In this document: piece after piece, positions 22,080 through 54,563 of the stretch | Layout of the letters: every line of letters begins with the position of its first letter | Numbering within the stretch: the first letter of the stretch is position 1 | NCBI GenBank assembly: GCA_013306675.1 | Contig: JABLUY010000078.1 | Span: 62,001 to 126,000 of the forward strand | Direction: 5' to 3' | DNA length: 64,000 nt | Source of the DNA: Thraustochytrium sp. TN22 | Lineage: Eukaryota > Sar > Bigyra > Thraustochytrida > Thraustochytriidae | Translations under genes and position numbers: made by a program | Notes under the pieces: model-generated | Databases searched by the model: none | Told to the model about the DNA's origin: nothing | The model's input: only the letters and a program-made list of their open reading frames with translations

Positions 22080-25000
22080 ATGGAGCGGCTGCTGGACTTC
22101 TCGCAGCAGGTGGACGTCCAGCTGCTGGAGCAGGTGGTGCAGGCGTTGAACACGTCGCCGGATGCGCAGGTGCGCGCGCAGGCGAATCAGACGCTGACGG
22201 CGTTCAAGGAGAACCCGAATGCGTGGCAGACGACGGCCACGGTCCTGGAGGCGAGCAAGGACCCGATGACGAAGTTCTTCGCGCTGCAGGTGCTGGAGGC
22301 GACCATCCAGTACCGGTGGCTGGCGCTGCCTGCCGAGCAGCGCGAGGGCATCCGCAACTACGTGGTGAAGATGATTATCGACCTGACGTCCACGGACGGG
22401 TACTCGACGGACAAGAGCCTGAAGCTGTTCGTGAGCAAGCTGAACCTGATTCTGGTGCACATTTTGAAGCAGGAGTGGCCGCAGAACTGGCCGAACTTCA
22501 TCCCGGAGATCGTCGGGTCGAGCCGCACGAGCGAGGTGCTGTGTGAGAACAACATGAACATCCTGAAGCTCCTGAGCGAGGAGGTCTTCGACTTCAGCAA
22601 GGAGGAGATGACGACGGACAAGGTCAAGACGATGAAGAACCAGCTTAACTCGGAGTTTCGGCAGATCTTCGAGCTGTGCCAGCTGGTGCTGACGGAGTCG
22701 ACGCGGCCGTCACTGGTGATCGTGACGCTGCAGACGCTGCTGCGCTTCCTGGCGTGGATTCCGCTGGGCTACATCTTCGAGACGCCGCTTGTGGAGCAGC
22801 TCATGACCAAGTTCCTGCCCAACACGCAGTTCCGCAACGACACGCTGGCGTGTCTGACGGAGATCGCCAGCGTCCGCGACTCCAAGTACGACCCGGTCTT
22901 CAACAACATGTTCGTCGGCGTGATGCAGATGCTGCAGAGGCAACTGCCGGCCAACACGGACATCCCGCGCGAGTATGAGACGGCCGGGGAGCGCGAGTGC
23001 CTCTTCATCCGAGGGCTGAGTCTCTTCTTCTCGAGCTTCTTCCTCAACCACCTGGACATTTGCGAGCGTCCGGACAACCACCAGCACACCATCACGGCCA
23101 TGTTTTACCTGGTGAGCATCTCCATGGTGGAGGAGAAGGAGATCTTCAAGATCTGCCTCGAGGTGTGGAACAAGTTCGCCAAGGATCTCTACGACTCAGA
23201 GCGCGCCTCGAACGGGGGCGGCTTTGGCAGCGTGTCATCCACCTCGCGTAAGTCGCTCTACGATACGGTGTTGACGCGCGTGCGCCTGGTTATGATCTCG
23301 CGCATGGCCAAGCCGGAGGAGGTGCTCATCGTGGAGGGCGACGACGGCACCATCGAGCGCGAGACGACCAAGGACACGGACGCCATCGCGCAGTACAAGA
23401 CGATGCGAGACACGCTCGTCTACCTCACGCACCTCGACTACGAGGACACGGAGAACATCATGCTGAGCAAGCTGGGCCAGCAGTGCAACGAGACGCTCAA
23501 CGAGTTCAGCTGGAAGAATCTCAACACGCTGTGCTGGGCCATTGGCTCCATCTCGGGCGCCATGAACGAGGAGGACGAGAAGCGCTTCCTCGTCATCGTC
23601 ATCAAGGACCTCCTCATGCTCTGCGAGATGAAGCGCGGCAAGGACAACAAGGCCGTCGTCGCGAGCAACATTATGTATGTAGTGGGTCAGTACCCGCGGT
23701 TTCTGCAGGCGCATTGGAAGTTCCTCAAGACCGTGGTCCGCAAGCTCTTCGAGTTTATGCACGAGCTGCACCCGGGCGTGCAGGACATGGCCTGCGACAC
23801 CTTCCTCAAGATCTCGCAAAAGTGCCGCGACCAGTTCGTCGTGCTCCAGAACACCGAGAAGCGCCCCTTCATTGACGAGCTGCTTGACGAGATGCAGTCC
23901 ACCACCCGCGACCTCGAGCGCCACCAGCGCCAGACCTTTTACGAGGCCGTCGGCTACGTCGTGCGCGAGCAGTCCAACGAGCAAGTCCGCAACGGGCTCC
24001 TGGATCGCCTTATGCAGCCCTCGACCGCCCAGTGGAAGAAGATCATGCAGCTTGGCTCCCAGAACAACCAGGCCCTCACCAACGTCGAGACCATCCGCGA
24101 GCTCGCCGACATCCTCCGCACCAACGTGCGCGTCTGCTCCGCTATGGGCTACGCCTTCCGTCCCCACCTCATGGGCCTCTACCTCGACATGCTGCACGTC
24201 TACAAGTTCTACAGCGGCAAGATCTCCGAGTCCGTCGTCTCCGCCGGCGAGATCGCCATCCAGCATCAAAACGTCAAGGTCATGCGCGTCGTCAAGATCG
24301 AGACGCTGCGCCTCATCGAGACCTTTGTTGCCAAGGCCGAGAACAACGCCGATATCGCCAACAACTTCGTCCCACCGCTCATCGAGCCGGTCCTCGGCGA
24401 TTACTCTCAGAGCGTGCCGCAGGCCCGCAACCACGAGGTGCTCCAGCTCTTCGTCGTCATCGTCACCAAGCTCAAGGGCGACGCCAACGCCGCCATGAAC
24501 GGCAAGATGGTCGAGCACGTCCTTGGCCCCGTCTTCATCCCCACCCTTGAGATGATTACCAAGAACTACATGGACTACCCCGAGCATCGCATCGCCTTTT
24601 ACAAGCTCCTCAAGGTCCTCAACGCCTTTTGCTTCCAGCGCCTCTTCGATGTCCCCAACGACACGCAGAAGAACATCGTCGACGCCGTCGTCTGGGCCTT
24701 CAAGCACACGGAGCGCAACATCTCCGAGACGGGCCTCGAGATCTGCGAGCGCATGCTCGAGAACGTTGCCAATGCCCCTGACCAGTTCGCTCAGGGCTTT
24801 TACCAGAGCTACTTCCTCAACCTCCTCCAGGACGTCCTCGTGGTCCTCACCGACCGCCTCCACGTCTCCGGCTTCACCATGCAGTGCAACATCCTCAAGC
24901 ACATGTTCGCCGTCGTCCAGGCCGGCCGCGTTCGCGTGCCCCTCGGCCAGGGCGCCTCTGACAACCAGTCCTTCCTCAAGCAGCACGTCTGCCAGATGAT

Positions 25001-25274
25001 CGCGAGCGCCTTCCCCAACGTCGCTGCCAAGCACGTCGAGGAGTTCGTGGTCGGTCTCTTCGACCCCAACAAGGACCTCGCCACGTTCAAGACTCATGTG
25101 CGCGACTTCCTCATCCGCCTCAAGGAGTTCTCCGCCGATGACGTCGTCGACCAGCTCTATCGCCAGGAGAAGGAGGAGGAGAATCGCCGCAAGGTCGAAG
25201 AGCAGCTGCGCCAGCGCGCTGCCATTCCCGGCATGCTCACCCAGCAGGAGAAGGACGAGATGGCTGATCTCTGA
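22080..25274 (+). CDS. XPO1: Exportin-1 (CRM1)
   Basis: 1064 residues from ATG 22080 (MERLLDFSQQVDVQLLEQV), close to human XPO1 (1071). This start is chosen because the upstream open frame is leader repeat. The family is unmistakable: an importin-beta N-terminal region, then LCWAIGSISGAMNEEDEKRF, RGKDNKAVVASNIMYVVGQY and GVQDMACDTFLKI. The CRM1 C-terminal domain includes NFVPPLIEPVLGDY and a conserved AFKHTERNISETGL block. XPO1 with RanGTP carries leucine-rich NES cargo out of the nucleus. The groove cysteine in LLMLCEMKRGK (about residue 515) corresponds to human Cys528, the leptomycin-B target, so the protein is predicted to be sensitive. Codons are mostly G-ending in the first half and mostly C-ending in the second. 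No intron is seen. Confidence 0.98.
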   Translation: MERLLDFSQQVDVQLLEQVVQALNTSPDAQVRAQANQTLTAFKENPNAWQTTATVLEASKDPMTKFFALQVLEATIQYRWLALPAEQREGIRNYVVKMIIDLTSTDGYSTDKSLKLFVSKLNLILVHILKQEWPQNWPNFIPEIVGSSRTSEVLCENNMNILKLLSEEVFDFSKEEMTTDKVKTMKNQLNSEFRQIFELCQLVLTESTRPSLVIVTLQTLLRFLAWIPLGYIFETPLVEQLMTKFLPNTQFRNDTLACLTEIASVRDSKYDPVFNNMFVGVMQMLQRQLPANTDIPREYETAGERECLFIRGLSLFFSSFFLNHLDICERPDNHQHTITAMFYLVSISMVEEKEIFKICLEVWNKFAKDLYDSERASNGGGFGSVSSTSRKSLYDTVLTRVRLVMISRMAKPEEVLIVEGDDGTIERETTKDTDAIAQYKTMRDTLVYLTHLDYEDTENIMLSKLGQQCNETLNEFSWKNLNTLCWAIGSISGAMNEEDEKRFLVIVIKDLLMLCEMKRGKDNKAVVASNIMYVVGQYPRFLQAHWKFLKTVVRKLFEFMHELHPGVQDMACDTFLKISQKCRDQFVVLQNTEKRPFIDELLDEMQSTTRDLERHQRQTFYEAVGYVVREQSNEQVRNGLLDRLMQPSTAQWKKIMQLGSQNNQALTNVETIRELADILRTNVRVCSAMGYAFRPHLMGLYLDMLHVYKFYSGKISESVVSAGEIAIQHQNVKVMRVVKIETLRLIETFVAKAENNADIANNFVPPLIEPVLGDYSQSVPQARNHEVLQLFVVIVTKLKGDANAAMNGKMVEHVLGPVFIPTLEMITKNYMDYPEHRIAFYKLLKVLNAFCFQRLFDVPNDTQKNIVDAVVWAFKHTERNISETGLEICERMLENVANAPDQFAQGFYQSYFLNLLQDVLVVLTDRLHVSGFTMQCNILKHMFAVVQAGRVRVPLGQGASDNQSFLKQHVCQMIASAFPNVAAKHVEEFVVGLFDPNKDLATFKTHVRDFLIRLKEFSADDVVDQLYRQEKEEENRRKVEEQLRQRAAIPGMLTQQEKDEMADL

Positions 25275-31459: not shown

Positions 31460-34400
31460 ATGGCGGCCGAGGAGCACGTTGACGTCTCGGAGGCGCTGGC
31501 CCGCGCGGCGGCGGCGGCGGCGGCGGACGAGGACGCGGCGGGCGGCGGCGCGGTGCGGCGAGCGGACACGGATGACAAGGACGGTGGCGACCCGGGGGCG
31601 GCGCCGCGCGGCGCCATGCCTGCGGAGGTGCTCGCGGAACGCGTCGCCGCGCTCAGGAAGCGCCTGAGCGAGAGCGGCGAGGTGGAGCAGCTGGCGGGGG
31701 ACAAGGATCTGGAGGATGCGAGCCTGGGAAGGTTTGTGCGCGCGCGCGACGGTGACGTGGACGCGGCCCTGGCGCAAATGATCAACGTGCTGCGGTGGCG
31801 CCGCGAGCACAAGGTGGACCTCATTCTGAAGCGCGACTACGAGTTCGTGGCGCAGGACCGATGGGGCATGGCGTACTGGCACGGCCACGACAAGGTGGGG
31901 CGGCCCGTCTTGGTCATTCGTGGCGTGCGCCATGACCCGTCGCTATTCAGCACCGAGACCACGGTGCGGTACCTCATTTGGAAGCTGGAGACCAAGCTGC
32001 GCGAGCCGGACGTGGACGACGTCGTGGTGATCTTCGATTTCCTCACCGTGGCGCGGCACAACGTGGACATGAGGCTTGTGCGCATCATGATCCCCCTGCT
32101 GCTCAACTTTTACCCGGAGCGCCTCGGCGTCTGCTTGGTCTACCCGGCGCAGCCCATCATGTGGATTTTGTGGAAGATGGTGTCCAAGGCCTTTGACGAG
32201 AAGACCGAGAAGAAGTTCATCTTCGTGCGCGAGCAGAAGCGGGACAACAAGTTCCTGCGCCTCATCCCTGCCGAGGAGCTCCAGGTCCGCTTCGGCGGCA
32301 CCAGCACGGCCGAGTACGGAATGGACCTGCTCGGACTTATCCCGCCTGGCTCGCTCGAGGAGGACCTCGCGGCGCCGCGCAGCAGCATGGGACGTGCCGA
32401 TGCTGCGGGCGGGCCTGAGGCGGCGGCCGCCGCGGCAGCGGCCGCAGCGGCCGCAACGGCCGACGCCGGCACCATGGGCGGCTTTCTCGGGGCGCCTGCC
32501 TGGACCACAGCCCATGTGCCAGCGCAGCAGCAGCAGCAGCAGCAGCGGCAGCCGCCAAAACGCATCCTGCAACATAGCCCCCTGTCGGAGGACTGCGTCG
32601 GCCCCCGCGCTTTCGCGGCGCTCTCCCTCGATTCATCGAACGGCGACTTCGACACGGACCAGGCAGTCCGCGCCCACGGTGGGGGCATCTTCGAGAACAC
32701 GGATGCGTTTGAGGCCTTCATGGAGTCTCGCGAGCACGATGTGGACCGCTTTCAGAGCCGTCTGCGGTACCAGGTGTCTCATCTGCGCATGGACCCGCAG
32801 GACGGTGGGTCGGACGACGCCTCCTCCACGATCAGTCCCGCGAGCGACAGCCACGCGCTCAACAACTCGCACGACGTGCGTACTCTGCTGAGCGACGCCG
32901 GCACGACCAACACGAGCAAAACGACGACGGGCCGGCGCGCGCGCCTCAAGCGGTTCCTGCAACGCAAGATCCTGCGCAAGCGCAGTGAGGTGGCTCTCGC
33001 CAAGCACTCGCGCAGCGAGAATGAGGTGCTCATGCACAAGTCGATGGACACCGTGCTGCAGGCTGGCAAGAGGCCGTCAGAATCGATCCCAACGGTGATG
33101 AAGCACCATTCCGAGGCAGCGGAGATGGCCGCAGAGTTGGCCGAGGCCGCCGAGGCCGCCGCGGTGCTACAGGCCGCGCGCGCGCAGGCTGAGGAGGACG
33201 CTCGGCTCCCGGACGACTTGCATGACCTGGGCGACGGCACGGAGGACAGCGGCCGGCTGACCTCGTCTGGCGTGCAGCCCATGTCGTCGCCGTCGTGGGC
33301 GGGTGCGAGCAGCCAGAATGCGCGCGCGACATCCTTACGGCGGCGGCGTCGATCGCGCGGATCGCGCGAGGAGAAGGCGCTGCTGCCGGCGTTCACGCCG
33401 GACAAGATCAAGTTCGTGATGGAGGCGGGCGCCTCCATGAAGCGCGTTGCGTACGACGACCCGGGCCGCGAATGCAACACGTGGTCGCCTTGCTCCGCTG
33501 CGCGCTTCCGCACGCGCGTCGGCCCGGACTACAAGCGCAACAAGTTCAAGGAGCCGTCCGCCTCGGCGCTTTACGAGTGCGTCTGCATGGACGTCTGGTC
33601 TCTGCAGAGCAAGCGACCCAACATCGGCAGCTACATGCAGCTGCCGGCAATGCAGGCGCGGCCTGCAACGGGCGACGGCCAGGTGGCGCCGCCCATCCCG
33701 GAGCTCCTCATCATCAACATCATGATGCCGGGCTATCCGCCGAGCGGTCCCTTTGCCAAGAAGCGCACGGACGGCCCCGGCTACAGCATCGTGCTCTTCT
33801 CCAAGCTCAGCAGCTGGGCCAAAGAGACGCCCGAGGACCCGTCCGTGCAGCTGTGGAGCCGCTTTGTGCACGTGTACGAGGGCGACAAGTTCCGGGAGCG
33901 CCTCAAGATGATCACGCGCCTGGAGAACTCGGACGAGGTTAGCCTGGGCCGCATCGAGCGCGCGCTCCTGCAAAAGTACAACGGCACGCCCTGGCTCGTG
34001 CGGCCCGAGTACGAATTCCACAGGGGTGAGGGCTACTTTGAGATCTGCATCGACTTTCACCGCTTCCCGTACTTTGCGCTCAGCAACGCCATGCCTGTGT
34101 TGGACCGCGTCACCAACGCCATCATCGACTGCGCGCTCATTGTGCAGGCCGAAAAGGACCAGGAGATGCCCGAGCGTGTGCTCGTCAGCGCCACCATTCG
34201 CTGCCTGAACCTCAAGGAGGCGCCCGAGATCGACCTCGTTGCCCTTTCTGACGAGTCCAAGCGCAAGTCCTCGCACCTGGGCGCGTACGGAGCCTCCTTC
34301 ATCGACCGCGATGGCCGTGTGCATAGCCTCGCGAAGCTGCAGCGCCACGCCACAAGCGAGAACGCGGAGGCTGCGGGCCCGCGCCCTGACACCTCGCGCA

Positions 34401-34723
34401 CCGCCGCTGCCGCGGCCCTCCCCGCGGCGCCTGCCGCGCGCCCTGGCGGCGGCGCCGAACACCCTACCGCAGTATCTTCTTCTGCAGCATCCGAGACGAG
34501 TGCCCGGGCCAGTGGACCGGGCAAGCCTGTTTGGAAGCTTATTGCCTGTGCGGCGCTCATCCTCTGCGCGGTGCTCCTCGTTATGTTGTCGTTCCAGGCC
34601 GACGGATCTTCTTCAGAGGCCGACGGGGCGCAGGAGGCCGTCGAGGTTTCCTTTGACTCGAGTCAAACTCAGGAGCCCTCAGCTGCCAATCTCGCAGCAA
34701 TCTCGTCTCATGCAGAGCTCTGA
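31460..34723 (+). CDS. Sec14 (CRAL-TRIO) - EDR2_C fusion with C-terminal membrane anchor
   Basis: 1087 residues. After an acidic/Ala-rich N-terminus come a CRAL-TRIO N-terminal helix region (FVRARDGDVDAALAQMINVLRWRREH, about 93-118) and the Sec14 lipid-binding domain (about 125-290). The latter has GRPVLVIRGVRHD, DVVVIFDFLTVARHN and ERLGVCLVYPAQPIMWILWKMV. A long linker has poly-Ala, poly-Gln (CAG-encoded) and Ser-rich parts. An EDR2_C/DUF1336 domain spans about 647-920 (PELLIINIMMPGYPP, IERALLQKYNGTPWLVRPEY, CIDFHRFPYFALSNA). Near the end KLIACAALILCAVLLVMLSF forms one membrane span (about 1026-1045). Sec14 domains exchange phospholipids, so this looks like a tail-anchored lipid-transfer protein for contact sites. 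The fusion is not an architecture I know from EDR2 itself. Confidence 0.88.
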   Translation: MAAEEHVDVSEALARAAAAAAADEDAAGGGAVRRADTDDKDGGDPGAAPRGAMPAEVLAERVAALRKRLSESGEVEQLAGDKDLEDASLGRFVRARDGDVDAALAQMINVLRWRREHKVDLILKRDYEFVAQDRWGMAYWHGHDKVGRPVLVIRGVRHDPSLFSTETTVRYLIWKLETKLREPDVDDVVVIFDFLTVARHNVDMRLVRIMIPLLLNFYPERLGVCLVYPAQPIMWILWKMVSKAFDEKTEKKFIFVREQKRDNKFLRLIPAEELQVRFGGTSTAEYGMDLLGLIPPGSLEEDLAAPRSSMGRADAAGGPEAAAAAAAAAAAATADAGTMGGFLGAPAWTTAHVPAQQQQQQQRQPPKRILQHSPLSEDCVGPRAFAALSLDSSNGDFDTDQAVRAHGGGIFENTDAFEAFMESREHDVDRFQSRLRYQVSHLRMDPQDGGSDDASSTISPASDSHALNNSHDVRTLLSDAGTTNTSKTTTGRRARLKRFLQRKILRKRSEVALAKHSRSENEVLMHKSMDTVLQAGKRPSESIPTVMKHHSEAAEMAAELAEAAEAAAVLQAARAQAEEDARLPDDLHDLGDGTEDSGRLTSSGVQPMSSPSWAGASSQNARATSLRRRRRSRGSREEKALLPAFTPDKIKFVMEAGASMKRVAYDDPGRECNTWSPCSAARFRTRVGPDYKRNKFKEPSASALYECVCMDVWSLQSKRPNIGSYMQLPAMQARPATGDGQVAPPIPELLIINIMMPGYPPSGPFAKKRTDGPGYSIVLFSKLSSWAKETPEDPSVQLWSRFVHVYEGDKFRERLKMITRLENSDEVSLGRIERALLQKYNGTPWLVRPEYEFHRGEGYFEICIDFHRFPYFALSNAMPVLDRVTNAIIDCALIVQAEKDQEMPERVLVSATIRCLNLKEAPEIDLVALSDESKRKSSHLGAYGASFIDRDGRVHSLAKLQRHATSENAEAAGPRPDTSRTAAAAALPAAPAARPGGGAEHPTAVSSSAASETSARASGPGKPVWKLIACAALILCAVLLVMLSFQADGSSSEADGAQEAVEVSFDSSQTQEPSAANLAAISSHAEL

Positions 34724-34945: not shown

Positions 34946-35425
34946 CCTCTGCCCATTTATTGTGAAATATCCCAATCACACCTCTATGCTTACTCGTATC
35001 CGCCTACCACGCGGGGGTCCCTCGGTGACGCCCGGCACAGGGGGCACTAAAGCGTATTAAGAGGGTACTTTACTCCCGATTTGCTCCAAAAAAGTGGCCT
35101 AGAGTCTGGCGAAGTTAGTTCCGCATTCGATCAAAAACGCAGCGATGGGGCCGAGCTTGAAGAGGCCCACTCGAAGCGACCCAAGGCTCCTGCCCCCTAT
35201 TCATTTTGGCCGAAGGCGTGGTGGTTAGGATGAGATGAGCTCGGCAGTTCGCCCAGAGCGGCTTTGGGGGGAGCTCGCGCGCGACTTCGTCGCGGAGCGC
35301 GCTGGAGCCGCAGGCGCTGCGGCGCGCGGCTGCAGGCGGCCCTGGCGGGTGCCTTGTGCCTGCTCTCAGCTCGCACGCCCCTGCCGCAGCGCTTGGACGT
35401 GGAGTCGGGCCCGCACTGCGACATC

Positions 35426-35628
35426 ATGGCATCGGCGAGGCCTAACCACCGCGTGGAGGACGACAGCGACAGCGACAGCGACAGCGAGTTCGTGCCCCTG
35501 GACAAGCGGGACACAGGGGACGAAGACGAAGAAGGAGAGGAGCTTGGCGACGAGGATGCTCGTGCTGAGGCCGCTGCGCAGCAAGACTTCGAAGACATAC
35601 TTGCGTTGGTCGACGAACCGACGCGTGG
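35426..35628 (+). pseudogene. Acidic N-terminal piece of the transposon protein, copy 1
   Basis: The frame from ATG 35426 gives MASARPNHRVEDDSDSDSDS and a further acidic run through EEGEELGDEDARAE to LALVDEPTRG. This resembles the acidic N-terminus usual in piggyBac transposases. The later coding pieces are in other frames. The same piece recurs in copy 2 at 37722-37924. Confidence 0.45.
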
Positions 35629-35637
35629 TGCGAGTGC

Positions 35638-36055
35638 ATGTTCGAGGTCGGCCTCATTCAGCACAAGACCGTTCCGGGGCTCGCAGTCTCGCCGGATGGA
35701 GTCGCTCGCGTCCGGCTTCCAGGCGCGGAGTGCGACGCATCGTCAGTACTATGCAGCGTCGAGATCAAGACGCGCGTCGCGCCTGGAGGCGCGGTAGACG
35801 CACGTATCGTGAGCACCCAGATGAACACGTGGGGGACGAGACTTGGTGGAAGGCCATACCTGCCGAGCACCGCGCGCAAGTCTTGCACCAAGCTGTGGTC
35901 CTCCAAATCGATCACGTGCTCTACGTTGCTGCCAGCACGAGTTCGTGTTTGTACGCCTGCCTCGTTGAAGTGCCTCCGGACGCCCGGCTCGCCATGGAGC
36001 GCGCTCTGAAACCGTGGGCGGACAAGCTCACGACATGGGCGCACCAGAGCATCGA
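35638..36055 (+). pseudogene. YqaJ-like nuclease remnant, copy 1
   Basis: One frame reads HKTVPGLAVSPDGVARV, then VLCSVEIKTRVAP. The SPDG...EIK pattern is that of the YqaJ/lambda-exonuclease branch of PD-(D/E)xK nucleases. A second frame nearby reads HRAQVLHQAVVLQIDHVLYV, matching the following QV-x-HQ helix of the family. The pieces lie in different frames, so the domain is not intact as a single reading frame. The copy 2 equivalent is 37934-38351. The assignment rests on motif spacing only. Confidence 0.5.
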
Positions 36056-36060
36056 CAGCG

Positions 36061-37101
36061 GGTGCGCCGCCCAAGCCACCTGCCATCTTCGGCGAGGAGG
36101 AGGGGGCGGTGCTGAGCTCGCACTTCCGGCTGTGGCGCGCCATGCGCAAGCTTGTCGCTCTGAAGGGGCCCATGCGGCCCGTGCATGTCATCAAGTGCTT
36201 ACCGCAGGAGCTATACAACGTCGCAAAGGGCGGCGTCGACGGAAGCACACAGTACGTGGAGCAGATCACCAACACGCAGTGCATGAATCTGAGCTGCGAC
36301 CAGAACATCGCGTTGCGCACGTACAAGCAGCTCGTTGTCAACGCCATCGTGGTCTACCGCTACTTACAGGCTGCGAGGAAGAGCAACCTCGAAGACAGCG
36401 ACGGGCTAAAGGCCCTCCGCGACAAGGTGAACCGCTCTGAAGCGCTCAGCACTGTCTCGTTCCGCCTCACTGTCGACATGGTCCGTCACGTCTACAGGAG
36501 CAGGCAGCTCGATACGGCGCAGGTGGAGTTCAACATGCAGCCAAGCATGCCCAAGCCCACTGGGCTCACCAGGGAAGCGGCGAGGGACCTCGTGACCGCC
36601 GGTAAGCGCAAGCGAACCCCCGAGTTGCAGAAGTTCTTCAACCACGGCCAAGCCCGCGACATCCGCCTCGATGCCGCACTGCAACATGACTCAGAGGCAG
36701 CGGGAAAGGCATCCTTCAACGCCAACAACAAGAGGATTCCCGCCAAGCGGCTCTGCGTCATCTGCGGCAAGCAAACGCACCGTCGTTGCACCATCTGCGG
36801 TGTGCCTCTGCACGTGTTCATGAGAAAGAATGAACGCACAACCTGCTTTTCCAAGTGGCACACGCGCGTGCGCGTCGAGCCTCACGAAGGCTTCAAGAAG
36901 CGCAAGACAAACGTCAACGGAACACCTTCGCCCATTTGCCTCGATCATGTCGATTCGAGCAGCGCCAGTGCCTCGTCCGGTACCCCTACAGCGCAGAGCA
37001 GGAACGACCACGTAGCCCAAGCCAGCTACACCGACACCCCATCAAGCCATAGTTCAAGATCCTCTCGCAGCAGCCTCAGCACGAGTCCATCGTGCCCTTG
37101 A
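36061..37101 (+). pseudogene. piggyBac-like transposase C-terminal piece, copy 1
   Basis: An open stretch of about 347 codons without a recognised start codon. It contains ELYNVAKGGVDGSTQY; the Asp of KGGVD corresponds to the third catalytic Asp of piggyBac (D447). A helical region QNIALRTYKQLVVNAIVVYRY follows, then a C-terminal Cys/His cluster CVICGK...RRCTICGVPLH...CFSKWH, like the piggyBac zinc-binding tail. Segments matching the first two catalytic Asp residues were not found upstream; the YqaJ-like remnant sits there instead. The tail is Ser-rich and ends at TGA 37101. Confidence 0.6.
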
Positions 37102-37266
37102 TGCAGCCCAAGTTGGCCTCAGCATCCGCACAGGCCAGTCGGAAGTGACCAACACTTTACGCTTCCATACAAACCCAGTAGTTGAAAGTTCCAAAAATGA
37201 TTAGAATCATGATAGCAACAGGTCAGTCGAGCGCAAGCAGGAGAGCCGATTTACTAGGGATAATAT

Positions 37267-39562
37267 CCCAATCACACCTCTATGCTTACTCGTATCCGCC
37301 TACCACGCGGGGGTCCCTCGGTGACGCCCGGCACAGGGGGCACTAAAGCGTATTAAGAGGGTACTTTACTCCCGATTTGCTCCAAAAAAGTGGCCTAGAG
37401 TCTGGCGAAGTTAGTTCCGCATTCGATCAAAAACGCAGCGATGGGGCCGAGCTTGAAGAGGCCCACTCGAAGCGACCCAAGGCTCCTGCCCCCTATTCAT
37501 TTTGGCCGAAGGCGTGGTGGTTAGGATGAGATGAGCTCGGCAGTTCGCCCAGAGCGGCTTTGGGGGGAGCTCGCGCGCGACTTCGTCGCGGAGCGCGCTG
37601 GAGCCGCAGGCGCTGCGGCGCGCGGCTGCAGGCGGCCCTGGCGGGTGCCTTGTGCCTGCTCTCAGCTCGCACGCCCCTGCCGCAGCGCTTGGACGTGGAG
37701 TCGGGCCCGCACTGCGACATCATGGCATCGGCGAGGCCTAACCACCGCGTGGAGGACGACAGCGACAGCGACAGCGACAGCGAGTTCGTGCCCCTGGACA
37801 AGCGGGACACAGGGGACGAAGACGAAGAAGGAGAGGAGCTTGGCGACGAGGATGCTCGTGCTGAGGCCGCTGCGCAGCAAGACTTCGAAGACATACTTGC
37901 GTTGGTCGACGAACCGACGCGTGGTGCGAGTGCATGTTCGAGGTCGGCCTCATTCAGCACAAGACCGTTCCGGGGCTCGCAGTCTCGCCGGATGGAGTCG
38001 CTCGCGTCCGGCTTCCAGGCGCGGAGTGCGACGCATCGTCAGTACTATGCAGCGTCGAGATCAAGACGCGCGTCGCGCCTGGAGGCGCGGTAGACGCACG
38101 TATCGTGAGCACCCAGATGAACACGTGGGGGACGAGACTTGGTGGAAGGCCATACCTGCCGAGCACCGCGCGCAAGTCTTGCACCAAGCTGTGGTCCTCC
38201 AAATCGATCACGTGCTCTACGTTGCTGCCAGCACGAGTTCGTGTTTGTACGCCTGCCTCGTTGAAGTGCCTCCGGACGCCCGGCTCGCCATGGAGCGCGC
38301 TCTGAAACCGTGGGCGGACAAGCTCACGACATGGGCGCACCAGAGCATCGACAGCGGGTGCGCCGCCCAAGCCACCTGCCATCTTCGGCGAGGAGGAGGG
38401 GGCGGTGCTGAGCTCGCACTTCCGGCTGTGGCGCGCCATGCGCAAGCTTGTCGCTCTGAAGGGGCCCATGCGGCCCGTGCATGTCATCAAGTGCTTACCG
38501 CAGGAGCTATACAACGTCGCAAAGGGCGGCGTCGACGGAAGCACACAGTACGTGGAGCAGATCACCAACACGCAGTGCATGAATCTGAGCTGCGACCAGA
38601 ACATCGCGTTGCGCACGTACAAGCAGCTCGTTGTCAACGCCATCGTGGTCTACCGCTACTTACAGGCTGCGAGGAAGAGCAACCTCGAAGACAGCGACGG
38701 GCTAAAGGCCCTCCGCGACAAGGTGAACCGCTCTGAAGCGCTCAGCACTGTCTCGTTCCGCCTCACTGTCGACATGGTCCGTCACGTCTACAGGAGCAGG
38801 CAGCTCGATACGGCGCAGGTGGAGTTCAACATGCAGCCAAGCATGCCCAAGCCCACTGGGCTCACCAGGGAAGCGGCGAGGGACCTCGTGACCGCCGGTA
38901 AGCGCAAGCGAACCCCCGAGTTGCAGAAGTTCTTCAACCACGGCCAAGCCCGCGACATCCGCCTCGATGCCGCACTGCAACATGACTCAGAGGCAGCGGG
39001 AAAGGCATCCTTCAACGCCAACAACAAGAGGATTCCCGCCAAGCGGCTCTGCGTCATCTGCGGCAAGCAAACGCACCGTCGTTGCACCATCTGCGGTGTG
39101 CCTCTGCACGTGTTCATGAGAAAGAATGAACGCACAACCTGCTTTTCCAAGTGGCACACGCGCGTGCGCGTCGAGCCTCACGAAGGCTTCAAGAAGCGCA
39201 AGACAAACGTCAACGGAACACCTTCGCCCATTTGCCTCGATCATGTCGATTCGAGCAGCGCCAGTGCCTCGTCCGGTACCCCTACAGCGCAGAGCAGGAA
39301 CGACCACGTAGCCCAAGCCAGCTACACCGACACCCCATCAAGCCATAGTTCAAGATCCTCTCGCAGCAGCCTCAGCACGAGTCCATCGTGCCCTTGATGC
39401 AGCCCAAGTTGGCCTCAGCATCCGCACAGGCCAGTCGGAAGTGACCAACACTTTACGCTTCCATACAAACCCAGTAGTTGAAAGTTCCAAAAATGATTAG
39501 AATCATGATAGCAACAGGTCAGTCGAGCGCAAGCAGGAGAGCCGATTTACTAGGGATAATAT
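37267..39562 (+). repeat. Transposon tandem copy 2 (2296 bp)
   Basis: Direct copy of 34971-37266. All open stretches match at an offset of exactly 2296 bp, and I saw no difference between copies. It abuts copy 1 and is followed by the two 45-bp right-end repeats. Confidence 0.93.
38357..39397 (+). pseudogene. piggyBac-like transposase C-terminal piece, copy 2
   Basis: Equivalent of the copy 1 piece, with the same KGGVD and Cys/His cluster. Together with identical upstream pieces this shows the whole coding block was duplicated after it had already fragmented. Confidence 0.6.
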
Positions 39563-46015: not shown

Positions 46016-49012
46016 TTACTTGTGATCAATTTGATTGCTGTTTGCTTCCATGGTGTCCGCCGCTGTGTCCACCTCGGTGGCATTCTGCATGATCTCACGT
46101 ATTGCCTCTTGCGTCACCTCGCACATCGCCTCGTGGGCCACCTCGCACATGATCGCCTGTTGCGTCGCTTCGCGCATCGTCGCTTGCGCCACTCGCGAAC
46201 CGACTTGCGGTGCTGTGGAAAAGGCCTCGGTGAGGAGCTGGCGCATGTCCTCGAGCATGGTGGCACGAAAACTGGCAAGCCTGTGAGCAATGAGGTCATC
46301 TATTGCCGCGTGCTTGGCGGAGGCCCTCGTGCTTGTGCTGCTCCAAATATCGCCGCCGCGATCACTCTCGCGCAGGCCGTCATTCTCCGCGAGGGAGAGC
46401 GTGATGAGGTTGTTGCGATTGCCCACCTGAGATGCCGTCGTGCTGCGAGCGGAGAAGGACGGCTCCAGGCGATTGTCCGTGACCCCGGCCCTCGCGTTAG
46501 CGCGCGACACGTTGCTACGACAGATGCTGCTAGGCGAGGCGCCGACAAATCCAAGGCCGCTCTCGTCGTCGATATCGCACCCAGACGCAGGGCGCGTCAT
46601 GGAGGCCTTGCCTCGCTGGTAGAAGGAGCGCTTTCGCTGGACGACGACAACACCGGTGTTCCGGCTGCGCAGGCCGCCGCTCTCTGCATCGGCAAGGTTG
46701 CTGCGATCGTCTTGTGCATCCTCCTCGTCGTCATGTTCCAGAAGCCAACGGCGCTGGCTATGCATGGACGACACTCTCGCGTTGGAGGAATACACCCTGG
46801 ACTGGGTCGAGCTGAGCCTGGGGCTCAATTCGTCCTCGCGCGAGTCCTCCCTGAGCGTGCCGGACGCGAAACCGTGGCTGGCGCTGCCGAGCCGCTCGCG
46901 GTCCTGCTGCGCCTTGAGCGCTGACATGCGGCGTCGATCCACGAAGGCCTTGTGCTCGTGGCGCTTCTCGACATTCTCGTCCTTGGCGCGGGCCGCCTCG
47001 TCGGCGAAGTCGCGCATAAAGTAGTTGATGAACTCGTGATAGTCGACAGCGCCGTCGCCGTTCTTGTCAAAGCGCACCAGGATGCCCTCAAGCAGCGAGG
47101 CGGGTCCGCAGAAACCGAGCTCGCGCACCGCGGCGAGGAACTCGACCCTGCTGAGCTCGTCGCGGCCGCGCATGTCGTGGCGCTTGAAGACTAGCGAGAC
47201 ATCGACGCCGAGGTGGTCCGCGTCCGTGGCGATCTGGTGCATGATCTTGCGGCCGATGCGAAGGCGCGTGGCGTACTTGATGAAGCTCTTGCGCAGCGCG
47301 ATCCAAATGGCTGATGCTCGGATGCGCGCGCGCTCCTGTGGGTACGCTTCGAGCAGCTCCTCGAGGACGTCGTGCTGCAAGCAGAGCACCTGGGCGAAGG
47401 TGAGCGCACGAGACGGCTTGCGATCGCGCAGCGCGTCGGATGCCACGATCATGTCAATACCCCACACGCTACCGCGTGTGAAGATTCGCGAGTTGCGCGC
47501 CACAACGCCGCGCGTGAGCACGCGCAGCTGCGGCCCAACAATGAGCTCCTGCGGTGCGTACAACTCGTGGTCCAGCGCGATGGCCACGGACGCGATAAAG
47601 TTGAGCGAGCCCTGGTTCAGCCACGGCACACGCTCCAACCACTCGCGACTCACGGCGTGCGCCACCTCGCCGCGCAGGGTCGGAGACATCTTCTCGAGCA
47701 AGCTCGAGTACGCATCGTCCTGCTCCATCTGGCGCCGCGCCATAAAATAGCTGCGCAGGCGGTGCCGCAGCTCCGACGGCATGTGCTTGGCCTGCATGTA
47801 CGCATTGAGCCGGTCCATCTGCTCCGAGAACTCGATCTCCTCGAGGTTGAAGGACGAGACGATTGAGGTGATGCCGCCGATGATGCGCGCCCACACGAGC
47901 GCACCCAGCAGCATCGTGAGCACCGCCACAAAACGCTCCGCCTCGGTGCCCGGGTTGGCCACGTCGCCATAGCCGATCGTGGTGATGGTGGTGCTTGCCC
48001 AATAGATGCACACGACGTACTGCTCCATGGCGCTCGCGTCCAAGAGGTCCTCGCTCACAATCCACGCATCCTCGAACGACGGCGTCATGCTCTCGAGCTT
48101 GGTGATGAGCCGCCATACGCAGGCCATCCAGTGCACGAGCGAGAGGATCGTAATTAAGAACTTGACCAGACTGAGCCGGTTGTACGTCCAGCGGTCGCCG
48201 CGCAGCAGTCCGAGAAACTCCAGTGTGCGCGAGAGCGCGCCGCCCAGCCGCGGCACGGCCAAAATGCGCAGGAGACGGCCCATCTCCAGTAGCTCGGACC
48301 GTGGTAAAATACTGTCGGGATGCGTGCGCGAGTGAAGTGCGAGCGTGTCCAGTGCGAGGCAGCCAAAAGACGCCATCGCGTCTGGCACAAGCCGCGTGCG
48401 CAAATAATTCCTGAAGATCAAGCGCAGATCGCGGATCCACTGGCCCGAAATAGGGTCCTGATAGCACATGATGAAGTGGATGCCAAAGTCCACCACGAAG
48501 AGCGCGTCGATGAGGCGGTTCATGATGAAGAGCCCGTTGGCATCGAGCTGCAGGAAAGCCACCTCGAAGGGCGTCCACGTCACTGTGCATAAAATAGCCA
48601 GGCACAGGAGGGCCTCCCAATAGCGCATCGCGCGCGTCGTCGGATTGATTCTAAAATCCACGTTCCGGTAGATCTCGTCGACTCTTCGCCGCGTCGCATC
48701 CAGCTCACGCTCGATCTCACGCCGCTTCGCCGTCGCCACGCGCGTTGGCACCTCGTTCGCCCACGCCTGCGTGGTCATATCCTCGACGGGCTGTGAGGTG
48801 CCCATATTCGCCAGGGAGGACACGCCCTCGGCCGCGACGCCATCTCGACTCTCGTCCTGCTGTGGCTCCGGCTCCACCACCTGCAGCGGGTGCACGACCG
48901 CCTTGCCGCTGCGTAGCTTACTGGATGCCGCCGCCCCGGACGACGATATGCTCGGCCTGCGCCCGCGCGGCGTCTTGAGCGAGTCATTCTTGTGGTTGCG
49001 TGCGATCCTCAT
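46016..49012 (-). CDS. Voltage/cyclic-nucleotide-type K+ channel with EF-hands
   Basis: 998 residues from ATG 49012 (MRIARNHKNDSLKTPRG); the open frame upstream is Arg-rich leader. Six membrane spans run from about residue 138 (YWEALLCLAILCTVTWTPFEVAFL). The pore has STTITTIGYGDVANPG, a K+-selective filter. The S4-like segment EMGRLLRILAVPRLG has fewer basic residues than classical voltage sensors. A C-linker and a cNMP-binding-like fold follow, without an obvious phosphate-binding cassette. An imperfect EF-hand (KRHDMRGRDELSRVEF) and a canonical one (DKNGDGAVDYHEF, about 645) come next. The last 35 residues contain a degenerate 8-residue helical repeat (CEVAHEAM, CEVTQEAI, REIMQNAT). This is an EAG/AKT-like protist channel, plausibly gated by voltage and Ca2+. 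Confidence 0.9.
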   Translation of the reverse strand: MRIARNHKNDSLKTPRGRRPSISSSGAAASSKLRSGKAVVHPLQVVEPEPQQDESRDGVAAEGVSSLANMGTSQPVEDMTTQAWANEVPTRVATAKRREIERELDATRRRVDEIYRNVDFRINPTTRAMRYWEALLCLAILCTVTWTPFEVAFLQLDANGLFIMNRLIDALFVVDFGIHFIMCYQDPISGQWIRDLRLIFRNYLRTRLVPDAMASFGCLALDTLALHSRTHPDSILPRSELLEMGRLLRILAVPRLGGALSRTLEFLGLLRGDRWTYNRLSLVKFLITILSLVHWMACVWRLITKLESMTPSFEDAWIVSEDLLDASAMEQYVVCIYWASTTITTIGYGDVANPGTEAERFVAVLTMLLGALVWARIIGGITSIVSSFNLEEIEFSEQMDRLNAYMQAKHMPSELRHRLRSYFMARRQMEQDDAYSSLLEKMSPTLRGEVAHAVSREWLERVPWLNQGSLNFIASVAIALDHELYAPQELIVGPQLRVLTRGVVARNSRIFTRGSVWGIDMIVASDALRDRKPSRALTFAQVLCLQHDVLEELLEAYPQERARIRASAIWIALRKSFIKYATRLRIGRKIMHQIATDADHLGVDVSLVFKRHDMRGRDELSRVEFLAAVRELGFCGPASLLEGILVRFDKNGDGAVDYHEFINYFMRDFADEAARAKDENVEKRHEHKAFVDRRRMSALKAQQDRERLGSASHGFASGTLREDSREDELSPRLSSTQSRVYSSNARVSSMHSQRRWLLEHDDEEDAQDDRSNLADAESGGLRSRNTGVVVVQRKRSFYQRGKASMTRPASGCDIDDESGLGFVGASPSSICRSNVSRANARAGVTDNRLEPSFSARSTTASQVGNRNNLITLSLAENDGLRESDRGGDIWSSTSTRASAKHAAIDDLIAHRLASFRATMLEDMRQLLTEAFSTAPQVGSRVAQATMREATQQAIMCEVAHEAMCEVTQEAIREIMQNATEVDTAADTMEANSNQIDHK

Positions 49013-50636: not shown

Positions 50637-51908
50637 ATGCCGGGGGCACGCAGCATGCAGCGGATTGCAGTGCTGGCGCTCTGCGTGGCGGCGGCGCGCG
50701 CGTCGGTGACGGCCGCGCGCGCCGCGGAGGAGACCGAGTACTACGGCAGCCTCAGCAGCTACGAGAGTCTGGATAGTTACTACGACGAGGTCAACGCTGT
50801 CAACTCGAGCTGTATCGAGGAGACCGCCACGCAGTATTGCTCGGCGTGCGCTAATGGCACCGTTGCGGACTGTCTCGGCTGCCTGGACGAGTACTCGGAT
50901 GTCGTCTTCGGCTGCATCAACACCGAGGTGGTGACGCCGGACTGCTTCATTGACGTCACGGATTGTGCCTTCTCGGACTGCCTGACTTCGACCTGGGCCA
51001 ACGTGTCGGCTTGTGTTGACTCGTGCGTGGCCAACACGACCTCGTGCATGGAGGATGACAGCAGCGACACGCGAACAAACTCGACCACTGTTGGCAACAG
51101 TACGCTACTTGATGAGGACGATCTCGAGGAGGGAACGTCGCGCACGGAGACCGTCTCCTCGACCAACGAGACGGACCTCGACACCATCGGGATCTGGAAC
51201 GAGACCTGCCTCGTCGACATGCTCCAGGACAGCTGCATGATCTGCGTCGAGACGGACGCCAGCGTGTCCGAGTGCCTTTACTGCCTCGACAATCAGAGCG
51301 CTGCGCTCTACACCTGCATGGACTCGGACCTCATCTCTGCGGACTGCTACGAGTCGGCCAGCGACTGCGCGCTGGACAGTTGCGCCGAAAGCAGCTGGAG
51401 CGACCTTGCAGACTGCGCGAACGCCTGCATCGCCAACGTCACTTCGTGTCCGGCCATCGCCTTTGAGGATGGCGATGTGGCTACGAACGCGACCAAGACC
51501 GAGGACCTGGAGACTGGGTCCACGAACTCGACTGCCTCGTACAACTCCACCACCAACGTCACCACCCTCTCCTCGAGCAGCGTCAGCGCTGCGGAGGTTC
51601 TTAACACCACCTGTATTGAGTCCGCACTCGAGCAGGATTGTCCCTCGTGCCTGGGGACCAACTACACGGGCATTCTTTCGGTTAACTGCAGCAGCTGCCT
51701 CGACGACAACCTCGACGCCATGCTTGCCACCTGCGCGGAGGATGACACCATCGACGGGTCCTGTCTTGAGGACTACGTCTCCTGCACCACGGCGCTTTGC
51801 TACGGCGAGTCATGGTCCTCGGGCTGCGCTGACGACTGTGAGAACGTCATGTGTTCGACCTTTTCGGACTCGAACTCTTCCTCGCGCCTCTTGCGCAACC
51901 TGTACTAA
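50637..51908 (+). CDS. Secreted glycoprotein with three 12-cysteine modules
   Basis: 423 residues with signal peptide MPGARSMQRIAVLALCVAAARA; Met 7 could be the true start. The mature chain consists of three modules of about 80 residues, beginning near residues 58, 190 and 325. They are joined by Thr/Ser/Asn-rich linkers. Modules 1 and 2 share cysteine spacing C-8-C-2-C-(7/9)-C-2-C-10-C-9-C-6-C-4-C-10-C-3-C-6-C. Module 3 differs only slightly (12, 11, 8 and 4 in four gaps). Many N-x-S/T sites (NSS, NGT, NVS, NTT, NET, NVT, NYT) indicate heavy N-glycosylation outside the cell. There is no membrane span. The same module occurs twice in the next + strand gene. No named domain was recognised. It could be a wall, matrix or adhesion component. 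Confidence 0.85.
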   Translation: MPGARSMQRIAVLALCVAAARASVTAARAAEETEYYGSLSSYESLDSYYDEVNAVNSSCIEETATQYCSACANGTVADCLGCLDEYSDVVFGCINTEVVTPDCFIDVTDCAFSDCLTSTWANVSACVDSCVANTTSCMEDDSSDTRTNSTTVGNSTLLDEDDLEEGTSRTETVSSTNETDLDTIGIWNETCLVDMLQDSCMICVETDASVSECLYCLDNQSAALYTCMDSDLISADCYESASDCALDSCAESSWSDLADCANACIANVTSCPAIAFEDGDVATNATKTEDLETGSTNSTASYNSTTNVTTLSSSSVSAAEVLNTTCIESALEQDCPSCLGTNYTGILSVNCSSCLDDNLDAMLATCAEDDTIDGSCLEDYVSCTTALCYGESWSSGCADDCENVMCSTFSDSNSSSRLLRNLY

Positions 51909-53672
51909 AAATCTAGAGAGTAAGAACGTAGTAGGAAATTGCTAGTTGCACTCCGCTGCCTGCTTGCATCTTTTGGGCGTGTGCACCGTGTCAGCGCTGG
52001 CATTGGTCGTGGCAAACGCAAGCTTGTGTGCGCGAACCGCCGGCCACGGCTGAAGGAGCGACCTGACTTGGAGCGCTGTCGCCCGCACCTTGACCGCTCA
52101 AGCGGTGCCGGGCCGGCCAATGCTTCACAACACAACGCGGACAAGGGAAAGCTTGCCAAATTTGGGGTGCACGGCATCTTGCTCGGCCAACTCTCCGCGA
52201 CGGCTCGCGACGCCCCGCGCGCGGCGCATTCGGCGCAGAGCACGTTTTCGTCCAAGTTGCCAATTGCCCAGAGAACCGGCCAACCCAGGAGCGCCGCCGA
52301 GTCGCTAACCGGCTGGCTGGCTCGCTAGCTGACGGCCGCTCTTCCTTGGTGCACGCGAATCCGACCTGTCTGGTCCGCGTCTGGCCAGGTACAACTCGTC
52401 CGTGTGGCTTCGGCGCGGTTAAATGACTTGCGACTTTGGAGAAGAAGCCTGCGCTCCGCGCCGCCGAGGCGCCTGCACTTGCCCGCGCTGCGCGGATCTC
52501 ATTTCGCTGCGCAGCCTGCGCTGCGTCAGTGGTGTTTTTCAAGTTCCCTCGGCCCCACAGTCAGCGGCCACAGACGCGGACGCCTGGCCATTGTCCCGCC
52601 GCGTCCGATTCCGTCACCGCTGCTCTCTCTCTCCTCGCTGCGGCTCTTCGAGCGCGCGCGGAGCAGGCCTAACAGCAGGTCGTGCGCCGCGCCGCGCGCC
52701 TGGCTCCTGCCTGCACCGTCGCGCCGGCGCCGGCGCAGCGCGTTGTCCCGAGAGCGACTCGGCACTTGTCACTGACCCAGGTGGGAGTGGTCGGTGAGAG
52801 AGGAACAGCCAGACGCCATCTATCAACAGGCGCCAATGGCCGCTCGCTCTTCCTTCATGGCATCTCGATCTTGATCTCGCGGCGCGCGCGCGCGCTCTCT
52901 CTTTCTCTGTCGCTTGCGAACTCTCTTTCTCTCTGTCTTGTCGACTCCGTCTCTCCGCGCGAGGCCGTCCCTTGCCGTGTCTCAAGCCACGCCGACCTTG
53001 CTGGTCCTCGAGTCGCACGCCATTCAGCTGCTGCCGGATGAAAACTCCGCGCCGGGGCTGCGACGATACACATACACATGAGTCATCATGACTGACATGG
53101 CTACCTACATGGCATCCAGCGAAGAATGAAAGAATGGGACGTTGGACCTCAGCAAGGGCTGCCAGGTCGCGCAGTCTCGAGGCGTTACAACAGCAACCCA
53201 ACAGAGGAGGCCGGCCGCGGCCGCGGCGAGTCCCGAGTCCCTCGCGCTTCACGCGCGCGCCGCCGCGCGTGCCGGGGCGGTCGACCGCCTTCGGTCTCGC
53301 CCCGACCCGACTCGACTCCTGCGCCGCCGCATTGGACCCCCCCGGTAGGTGGAGGCCCGCTCGGGGTCGGCCGGCCGCCTGGCCTCGGCGCGGAAGGGAG
53401 CCGGGTCGGCGCGGCGTAGGCTCGGCGCTGGCGTGGCGTGGCGCAGGCAGGCAGGCAGGCAGTTTGAGAGAGCAGGAGGGAACAGCTTGAACGAATTCGC
53501 CGGCCAGCCGGAGGCCGGGTTAGCTCTCCGCTGTTGTCTGGCTGTCTTTCTTTCAGAGTCCGCAGGCATCGCAGCGACTCTGTGTGTCTCATTCCCGTCC
53601 ACACCGACCTTGCTCGGGCCCGAGGCACGCGGCAGGCGGGCAGGCAGCGCGGAGAGCAAAACCGAATCAGCA

Positions 53673-53723
<51 letters not shown>

Positions 53724-53753
53724 CAAGGCAGCGAGCACAAGCCAATCGACGTC
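51909..53753. other. Intergenic region between the two 12-Cys genes
   Basis: It holds TTCAAGTT at 52538-52545, a pyrimidine-rich CTCTCTTTCTC stretch at about 52892-52932 and the CAAG array just before the next start codon. No third module copy or remnant was found. Confidence 0.5.
53675..53722. repeat. (CAAG)12 tetranucleotide array
   Basis: Twelve CAAG units ending 31 bp before the start codon of the second 12-Cys gene, so almost surely in its 5' leader. Confidence 0.92.
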
Positions 53754-54563
53754 ATGCAGCAGATCAAGGCCCTGTGGATGATGGCGGCCCTCGTGGCTGG
53801 CCTGGCCGGCGCCGTCGAGGCTCGCGGCGGTAACGTGGGCGGCCCCGGCCTGGGCGGCCACGGCCTGGGCGGCCACCACAACGTGTCGGCGTGCGCGTCG
53901 AGCATGGAGGAGCTCTGCGGTGTGTGCGTGGACAGCAAGCACATGAACATGTCAGAGGCCACGGACTGCCTGAGCTGCCTGCAGGACAACGCAGCGGAGC
54001 TGGAGGACTGCTCTGGCGCGCTGGAGTCCCGCCTTGAATGCAAGGTCGAGGTTGTCTCGTGCGTGTCGGATGAGTGCGCGGACGCGGAAGGCACCGAGGC
54101 CATCGAGTGCTACATGGGCTGCCGCGCCAATGCCACCAGCTGCGCCAACATGACGGGCCCGCACGGCGGCTCCTCGCACGGCGGCTCCTCGCACGGCGGC
54201 CCCTCGTACGGCGGCCGCGGCCGCGGGCTCAAGGGCGGCAAGGGCCACGGCGGGCTGCGCCGGAATGGCACCGAGACGGATGGCGACGACTGCGGCAGCG
54301 CTCTGCGCGAGACGTGCCCCACGTGCAGCTTCCGCGGCAACCTCTTCGACTCTGCCTCCATGGAAACCTGCCTGGACTGCCTTGAGGACAACGAAGATGA
54401 CATCGGCGACTGCGCCAGCTCTCTCATTGATGCCCTCGAGTGCGACGTGGAGCTTCAAGACTGCATCGACGAGTCCTGCGCCGAGGTCACCGGCAAGGCT
54501 GACCTCCGCTCCTGCGTCAAGGAGTGCCGCGAGTCCACCTCTGCCTGCACCTCAGACGAGTAA
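53754..54563 (+). CDS. Secreted glycoprotein with two 12-cysteine modules
   Basis: 269 residues from ATG 53754; the signal peptide is MQQIKALWMMAALVAGLAGAVEA. A Gly/His-rich stretch precedes module A (about 45-130) and a Gly/Ser/His linker (GGSSHGGSSHGG, a 15-bp DNA repeat) precedes module B (about 180-265). Both follow C-7-C-2-C-(13/14)-C-2-C-10-C-9-C-6-C-4-C-(10/11)-C-3-C-6-C, the same framework as the neighbour at 50637. Conserved non-Cys features include CL-x-CL-[QED]-D-N and an acidic residue before the sixth Cys. There is no membrane anchor. It is a tandem paralogue of the upstream gene, with a much less glycosylated linker. Confidence 0.85.
   Translation: MQQIKALWMMAALVAGLAGAVEARGGNVGGPGLGGHGLGGHHNVSACASSMEELCGVCVDSKHMNMSEATDCLSCLQDNAAELEDCSGALESRLECKVEVVSCVSDECADAEGTEAIECYMGCRANATSCANMTGPHGGSSHGGSSHGGPSYGGRGRGLKGGKGHGGLRRNGTETDGDDCGSALRETCPTCSFRGNLFDSASMETCLDCLEDNEDDIGDCASSLIDALECDVELQDCIDESCAEVTGKADLRSCVKECRESTSACTSDE

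Follow-up and report, generated by a model that had tools for sequence, protein, structure and literature searches.

Twelve-cysteine modules with a predicted helical fold in two neighbouring secreted-type genes: a candidate undescribed domain family

Introduction

Secreted disulfide-rich proteins without a named domain are common in protists, so that one more of them is in itself unsurprising. The protein parts of the ectoplasmic net are mostly candidates so far. Among described cysteine-rich systems, the CHCH domain carries two C-x9-C motifs, one on each helix of a hairpin, and the best-known CHCH proteins are mitochondrial. The GLG1 repeats (Cys-rich FGFR), the GDNF/GAS1 domains and the elicitin domains are helical, disulfide-rich and extracellular, and snakins are about 60 residues long with adjacent cysteines. 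The enclosed disulfides of p8MTCP1 (Cys-9-Cys-10-Cys-9-Cys) are described as stapling a helical hairpin, a precedent for such an arrangement (PMC4596865), and CHCHD4 is described as mitochondrial (PMC12114033). Plant snakin/GASA peptides, short secreted domains with twelve cysteines, are presented as host defence peptides (PMC7711543). In the sections covered of a proteomics paper on candidate proteins of the ectoplasmic network in Aurantiochytrium limacinum, cysteine is mentioned twice, both times in the methods (PMC12221091).

Results

Two neighbouring genes on the forward strand of the window (the whole 64-kb stretch of DNA analysed) encoded twelve-cysteine modules, three in gene 1 (50637..51908) and two in gene 2 (53754..54563), all with one common spacing. 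This framework had been reported in the first-pass annotation, and the same spacing was recovered at the same coordinates. Gaps between successive cysteines were 8-2-7-2-10-9-6-4-10-3-6 in the first module of gene 1 (g1m1, 50811..51047, + strand), 8-2-9-2-10-9-6-4-10-3-6 in g1m2 (51207..51449, +), 8-2-12-2-11-9-6-4-8-3-4 in g1m3 (51612..51854, +), 7-2-13-2-10-9-6-4-10-3-6 in the first module of gene 2 (g2m1, 53892..54143, +) and 7-2-14-2-10-9-6-4-11-3-6 in g2m2 (54291..54548, +). All five modules were delimited from C1 to C12 by gap analysis and a six-frame scan. Modules spanned 79-86 residues between these cysteines. Six of the eleven gaps were invariant in all five modules, two differed by at most one residue and three varied more. 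Cysteine number per module was even and constant, and both CxxC pairs (C2-C3 and C4-C5) were present throughout. A six-frame regular-expression scan of the window with tight, looser and core patterns retrieved none beyond these five. Module g1m3 was the odd one out, with x11 after C5 and shorter last gaps.

Gene 1 is a single open frame of 423 aa on the + strand, secreted-type, acidic and sequon-rich (ORF, composition, sequons, codon statistics), and gene 2 a secreted-type frame of 269 aa on the same strand (ORF, composition, codon statistics). In both genes, codon statistics preferred the annotated frame to any of the five alternatives, with a training set of eight frames of the window (seven with Pfam hits, plus frame 22080-25274, recognised by eye and which we take to be exportin-like). 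The open frame of gene 2 runs from a GTG at 53349, and its first in-frame ATG, at 53754, opens a signal-like start. Hydropathy (Kyte-Doolittle, 15 residues) peaked at the N-terminus at 2.18 in gene 1 and 2.06 in gene 2, with maxima past residue 30 of 1.32 and 1.03, respectively. Earlier claims of signal peptides and of no membrane anchor agree with these profiles: judged by hydropathy alone, both N-termini are signal-like (about 30 aa at 50637..50726 and about 24 aa at 53754..53825, both +, cleavage sites estimated by eye), and no comparable hydrophobic segment follows in either protein. The assignment of both gene products as secreted-type proteins is supported by these signal-like N-termini.

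Modules are separated by linkers of contrasting composition. In gene 1, the first linker (53 aa, 51048..51206, +) is rich in Ser, Thr, Asp, Glu and Asn, and the second (54 aa, 51450..51611, +) in Ser, Thr and Asn, both with sequons. The Gly/His-rich linker noted earlier in gene 2 is present (49 aa, 54144..54290, +), is also rich in Ser, and includes basic residues with an Arg-Arg pair. The mature gene 1 chain held 18 sequons where shuffled chains gave 6.3 (none of 10000 reached 18), and that of gene 2 held 5 where they gave 1.4 (69 of 10000 reached 5). The dense N-glycosylation proposed for gene 1 is in line with this excess, and both proteins are probably N-glycosylated. In the alignment, inspected by eye, a sequon ended at C1 or one residue earlier in four of five modules, and another lay immediately ahead of C12 in three. 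Net charge was about -68 for gene 1 and -29 for gene 2, with a pI of at most 4.05 for gene 1 (4.05 being the floor of the program) and about 4.35 for the mature gene 2 protein. The mature gene 1 chain contained five Lys plus Arg, no His and no dibasic site.

Between genes, 8 to 10 of the 11 gaps agreed within one residue in each module pair, an agreement reached by 0 of 20000 random placements of the same cysteines in five of the six pairs and by 4 of 20000 in the sixth. When cysteines were kept fixed and other residues shuffled, summed between-gene similarity stood at z = 3.8, and none of 1000 shuffles reached it. Only three of the six between-gene pairs were convincing on their own, with 0, 4 and 19 of 1000 shuffles scoring as high; for the remaining three the counts were 63, 115 and 485. 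Matches of modules across genes were reciprocal (E 0.005 and 0.013). Judged from gaps and residues, a shared ancestry of the five modules was shown, their kinship lying beyond chance. The similarity of g1m3 to modules of gene 2 did not go beyond chance in the shuffle test, and g1m3 as sole query of its own genome retrieved no other module.

The two genes had been suggested to stem from a tandem duplication, with module number changing afterwards. Such an order of events predicts kinship between the first modules and between the second modules of the two genes. These pairs scored z 2.2 and 1.6, however, lower than either cross pair (g1m1-g2m2, z 3.7; g1m2-g2m1, z 3.0), and the strongest pairs of all were found within genes (g1m1-g1m2, z 6.9; g2m1-g2m2, z 5.4), which weakens this suggestion. 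Sequence-search E values followed the same order (3.3e-11 and about 1e-7 within genes, 0.005 at best between them). Pairs of g1m3 with g1m1 and g1m2 (z 3.3 each) were not above the best between-gene pair. The five-module tree split gene 1 modules from gene 2 modules (93/93), in a topology where no branch was starred and branches were saturated, with up to 8 changes per column on end branches. A better fit to these similarities, short of proof, would be that modules multiplied separately in the two genes once these had split, or that they changed in concert. With blastn, the gene 1 and gene 2 regions gave 10 matches at E <= 1, each of at most 26 bases; a gene duplication, if real, would be old.

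One module of each gene was modelled with AlphaFold2, and both models run through four helical stretches in a similar order, with a mean pLDDT of 87.1 for g1m2 and 82.7 for g2m1; they were built from the same five aligned sequences and are hence not fully independent. Structure prediction, which the first-pass annotation had proposed as a check, gave a compact predicted fold of fair confidence for one module of each gene. Three cysteines lie in or beside each of the four predicted stretches. The gap pattern has near mirror symmetry within each half-module: C2-x2-C3 is mirrored by C4-x2-C5, and C7-x6-C8-x4-C9 read forward is nearly the same as C12-x6-C11-x3-C10 read backward in four of five modules (x4 replaces x6 in g1m3). 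From this symmetry we infer a nested pairing, C1-C6, C2-C5 and C3-C4 followed by C7-C12, C8-C11 and C9-C10, with three rungs per hairpin. In a coarse distance-geometry test (8 starts for each of 106 sampled pairings of g1m2 and 76 of g2m1), the nested pairing was strain-free. At least half of the g1m2 pairings and between 5% and 25% of the g2m1 pairings did equally well, however, and because so many tie, this result is not evidence for it.

Neither full protein reached a curated cut-off in Pfam-A (best RCDG1, 12.6 bits vs 27), nor did any of the five modules singly (best RCDG1, E 0.043). NCBIfam gave no match for the proteins, a profile search of PDB sequences nothing significant (RING/CHY zinc-finger at E 0.18 and 1.1, CHCHD5 at E 1.1), and Foldseek with the module models no significant match among PDB folds or viral folds. 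The claim of an undescribed module is supported as far as these libraries reach. The framework was not found named in the literature covered, which lies outside subscription journals and preprints.

No third gene was found across the whole 37.9-Mb genome at the limited sensitivity of the search; with module identities of just 12-22% (cysteines excluded), single-sequence searches are weak. Of the own-genome matches outside the two genes, that in C133 (E 0.037) contained seven stops, and neither loose nor core framework was present in the loci (L004, L019 and L020) of this match and those in C166 (E 0.37) and C36 (E 3.05). A core-pattern match in a further locus (L013) was a simple repeat. No confirmed relative was obtained among viral contigs (queries g1m2 and gene 2) or prokaryotic genome contigs (queries gene 2 and gene 1), as expected for a eukaryotic gene, and these results say nothing on absence in eukaryotes. 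The modules appear to form a real protein family, if a small one, known here from two genes of one genome. A PUFA-synthase gene that scored above its cut-off suggests that this genome probably belongs to a thraustochytrid.

Discussion

Our main reading, at a probability of about 0.4, is that both genes encode secreted beads-on-a-string glycoproteins, built of undescribed helical modules with nested disulfides and having a structural or adhesive function at the surface, wall or net. Each bead would be an all-helical module of two hairpins, with three nested disulfides per hairpin that would render the module rigid and protease-resistant. Flexible linkers of 49-54 residues, acidic and sequon-rich in gene 1 and Gly/His-rich in gene 2, would keep beads at a regular distance, and the proteins would work at the cell surface, wall or ectoplasmic net of a thraustochytrid-like protist. 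The most likely role is that of a putative disulfide-hardened surface or matrix glycoprotein. None of the 10 frames scanned in the window had an obviously related function. More tentatively, and with the odds somewhat against it, the modules may represent a domain family, and perhaps a disulfide-rich fold, not described before, in which two hairpins with three-rung ladders serve as rigid beads in the extracellular coat or net of a thraustochytrid lineage and linker chemistry was swapped between paralogues. The module matters in that it is repeated and compact and that five sequences sufficed for a prediction of fair confidence, so that both the pairing of its cysteines and the site where it acts are open to direct test. 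If it belongs to the ectoplasmic net, it would offer a molecular entry point to that structure.

Other readings share part of this evidence. Rather unlikely is a divergent member of a named helical cysteine-rich family, too distant for its profile or named in other collections. The low identity that weakens single-sequence searches would allow it, as would a profile resting on five sequences and libraries that left out eukaryotic protein collections, but the best Pfam E value among the five modules was 0.043 and neither PDB folds nor viral models matched the module models significantly. Multi-headed, cysteine-rich secreted layouts with linkers are common in inhibitors and antimicrobial peptides, and the modules might similarly be defence or interaction domains (protease inhibitor, antimicrobial or signal-like) carried on precursors whose linkers may be cut. 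Basic residues in the gene 2 linker, with their Arg-Arg pair, would suit such cutting, and twelve-cysteine plant snakins are described as host defence peptides (PMC7711543). Pfam and NCBIfam matched no inhibitor or defence-peptide family, however, and the mature gene 1 chain lacks a dibasic site among its few basic residues. The modules are moreover acidic whereas antimicrobial peptides are mostly cationic, which leaves this reading unlikely.

Quite improbable is that the cysteines, together with the gene 2 linker, act as metal ligands rather than, or in addition to, pairing in disulfides, for extracellular metal capture. The CxxC pairs, the Gly/His-rich linker, the zinc-finger profile matches and a RING family match of one module (E 3.4) point that way, but the zinc-finger matches lack significance, the mature gene 1 chain has no His, and an even, constant cysteine count is in keeping with disulfides, into which cysteines of secretory-pathway proteins are normally oxidised.

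Compared with described systems, the beads of the preferred structural or adhesive reading would resemble CHCH or twin CX9C proteins (p8MTCP1, CHCHD5) in having helices joined by nested disulfides, here from the putative pairing, but differ in their two hairpins of three presumed rungs each, other spacings and secretory route. CHCH itself was rejected: the sole x9 common to all five modules, C6-C7, links two helical stretches in both models, and PF06747 matched one of five modules below threshold (E 0.2) and full gene 2 at 9.3 bits vs a cut-off of 27.2. Module g1m2 has an additional x9, C3-C4, likewise in a loop. With snakin/GASA peptides the modules share twelve cysteines in a short secreted domain, but none has a zero-length gap (adjacent Cys-Cys) and there was no Pfam match. 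The modules are, like the Cys-rich FGFR/GLG1, GDNF/GAS1 and elicitin domains, predicted helical, disulfide-rich and extracellular; these domains were absent from the three families found at E <= 10 in the five-module Pfam scan, in which few matches with E above about 0.1 survive HMMER's filters. The CLxCLxDN...C stretch is reminiscent of the GLG1 repeat.

A twelve-cysteine module in two neighbouring genes

Gene 1 (50637-51908, + strand) and gene 2 (53754-54563, + strand) encoded three (g1m1 to g1m3) and two (g2m1, g2m2) modules of twelve cysteines (C1 to C12), respectively. The five copies reported by the first-pass annotation were recovered at these positions from gap lists and cysteine-to-cysteine coordinates, and cysteine-spacing patterns in all six frames of the window yielded no further copy. 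The module is genuine, the observation being sound, and apparently undescribed. Invariant columns (12 of the 98 in the five-module alignment) corresponded to eleven cysteines and a leucine that follows C5; C1 was not among them only because eight residues separate it from C2 in gene 1 and seven in gene 2. Pairwise identity, leaving out cysteine-cysteine columns, was 12 to 22%. The spread and disulfides of the module would have to be known for it to be of more than modest interest.

Gene 1 and gene 2 are real genes. Each formed one uninterrupted open frame, with third-position GC (0.83 and 0.89, respectively) resembling that of Pfam-identified neighbours. Codon scores were 0.35 (gene 1) and 0.45 (gene 2) in their own frames, against at most 0.09 and -0.13 in the other five; when only synonymous codons were counted, the own-frame scores were 0.11 and 0.32, and the other frames did not exceed -0.08 and -0.02, respectively. 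Hydropathy of both proteins agreed with the earlier proposal of signal peptides without an anchor, with signal-like N-termini and no anchor segment. N-glycosylation sequons were about three times as frequent as in shuffled sequences. Shortly 5' of the gene 2 start, an in-frame KQAS repeat run (about 53655-53715, + strand) was located in an ORF from GTG 53349, the opposite strand reading repeated LLAC; it is probably an untranslated simple repeat.

Kinship and duplication history

Spacing agreement between the genes was attained by none of 20000 random placements for five of the six module pairs, and by 4 of 20000 for the sixth. After shuffling of non-cysteine residues, the summed between-gene excess of similarity (z, cysteines held fixed) was 3.8 (0/1000 shuffles). 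Three pairs were convincing (g1m1-g2m2, 0/1000 shuffles attaining the score; g1m2-g2m1, 4/1000; g1m1-g2m1, 19/1000) and three were not (g1m2-g2m2, 63/1000; g1m3-g2m2, 115/1000; g1m3-g2m1, 485/1000). In genome searches with single modules, hits from one gene to the other had E-values of 0.005 and 0.013.

The two strongest pairs were both within genes, namely g1m1-g1m2 (z 6.9, E 3.3e-11) and g2m1-g2m2 (z 5.4, E 1.7e-7 and 1.1e-7), and the module tree agreed weakly with this kinship. The third module of gene 1 was about as distant from its own gene's modules (z 3.3 and 3.3) as the best between-gene pair. Tandem duplication followed by a change in module number, the order proposed initially, was not favoured, equal-position pairs (m1-m1 z 2.2, m2-m2 z 1.6) being weaker than cross pairs (z 3.7 and 3.0). 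Since within-gene pairs were closest and equal-position pairs weak, the likeliest history is module multiplication inside each gene, later than the split between the two genes, or homogenisation of the modules.

The 37,891,866-base genome was searched with all five modules and with the two full-length proteins (once at E ≤ 0.001, otherwise at E ≤ 10). Among the best candidates, the only ones scored, these single-sequence queries revealed the framework in no third gene. As g1m3 alone retrieved none of its four sister modules at E ≤ 10, an equally divergent third gene could escape the search, as could exon-interrupted copies.

Cysteine pairing and likely role

The gap lists formed two near-palindromes, C1 to C6 and C7 to C12, each of which could fold as an antiparallel hairpin with three nested disulfide rungs. 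Such pairing would be compatible with the gap lists, g1m3 fitting less well with its shorter last gaps; a coarse geometric test of pairings did not discriminate. Stapling of a helical hairpin by two enclosed disulfides (PMC4596865) offers a precedent.

Judging from sequence features, a coat, matrix or net glycoprotein would in our judgement fit both proteins best, because of their acidity, sequons, regular linkers, lack of an anchor and predicted cysteine-rich helical beads. Candidate ectoplasmic-network proteins in a proteomic list include adhesin-like secreted proteins, and nothing like the module is named in the passages of that study examined (PMC12221091).

Genomic neighbourhood

Ten neighbour frames scanned with Pfam (an ion channel with EF-hand matches, a lysine methyltransferase, a WH1 protein, a legumain, an EDR2-type protein and others) provided no functional clue. 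Neighbours uninformative on function are expected in a eukaryote. The ion-channel frame (46016-49012, - strand) matched Ion_trans (E 4e-13), with EF-hand matches toward its C-terminal part (EF-hand_7, E 4.5e-6, 27.4 bits, just below the cut-off of 30). A single open frame at 31460-34723 (+ strand) combined CRAL-TRIO with an EDR2 C-terminal domain, to our knowledge not a common pairing. At 34966-39562, a 2296-bp unit was repeated head to tail with zero mismatches (34966-37266 being identical to the stretch 2296 bases downstream). Both copies held identical 319-aa and 401-aa open frames, the former without a Pfam match; recent duplication, a mobile unit and an assembly artefact are the alternatives.

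The genome also contains a 3044-residue open frame that, with its neighbours in frame, matched PfaA-type PUFA synthase at 2539.7 bits (cut-off 1010.1) and adjoined a 2083-residue frame in divergent orientation. Some PfaA-type match was given by 11 of 14 control genomes, and none attained the cut-off. Taken together with the eukaryotic neighbours (among them the WH1, legumain and EDR2-type proteins), this frame makes a thraustochytrid the probable source, although PUFA synthases are also present in bacteria. Genome size pointed in no clear direction. According to PMC6050695, genomes of three DHA-producing strains span 58.10 to 65.69 Mb and are at least 48.72% larger than those of two non-producing strains; on these figures the 37.9 Mb genome was closer to the non-producing strains, despite the presence of a PUFA synthase.
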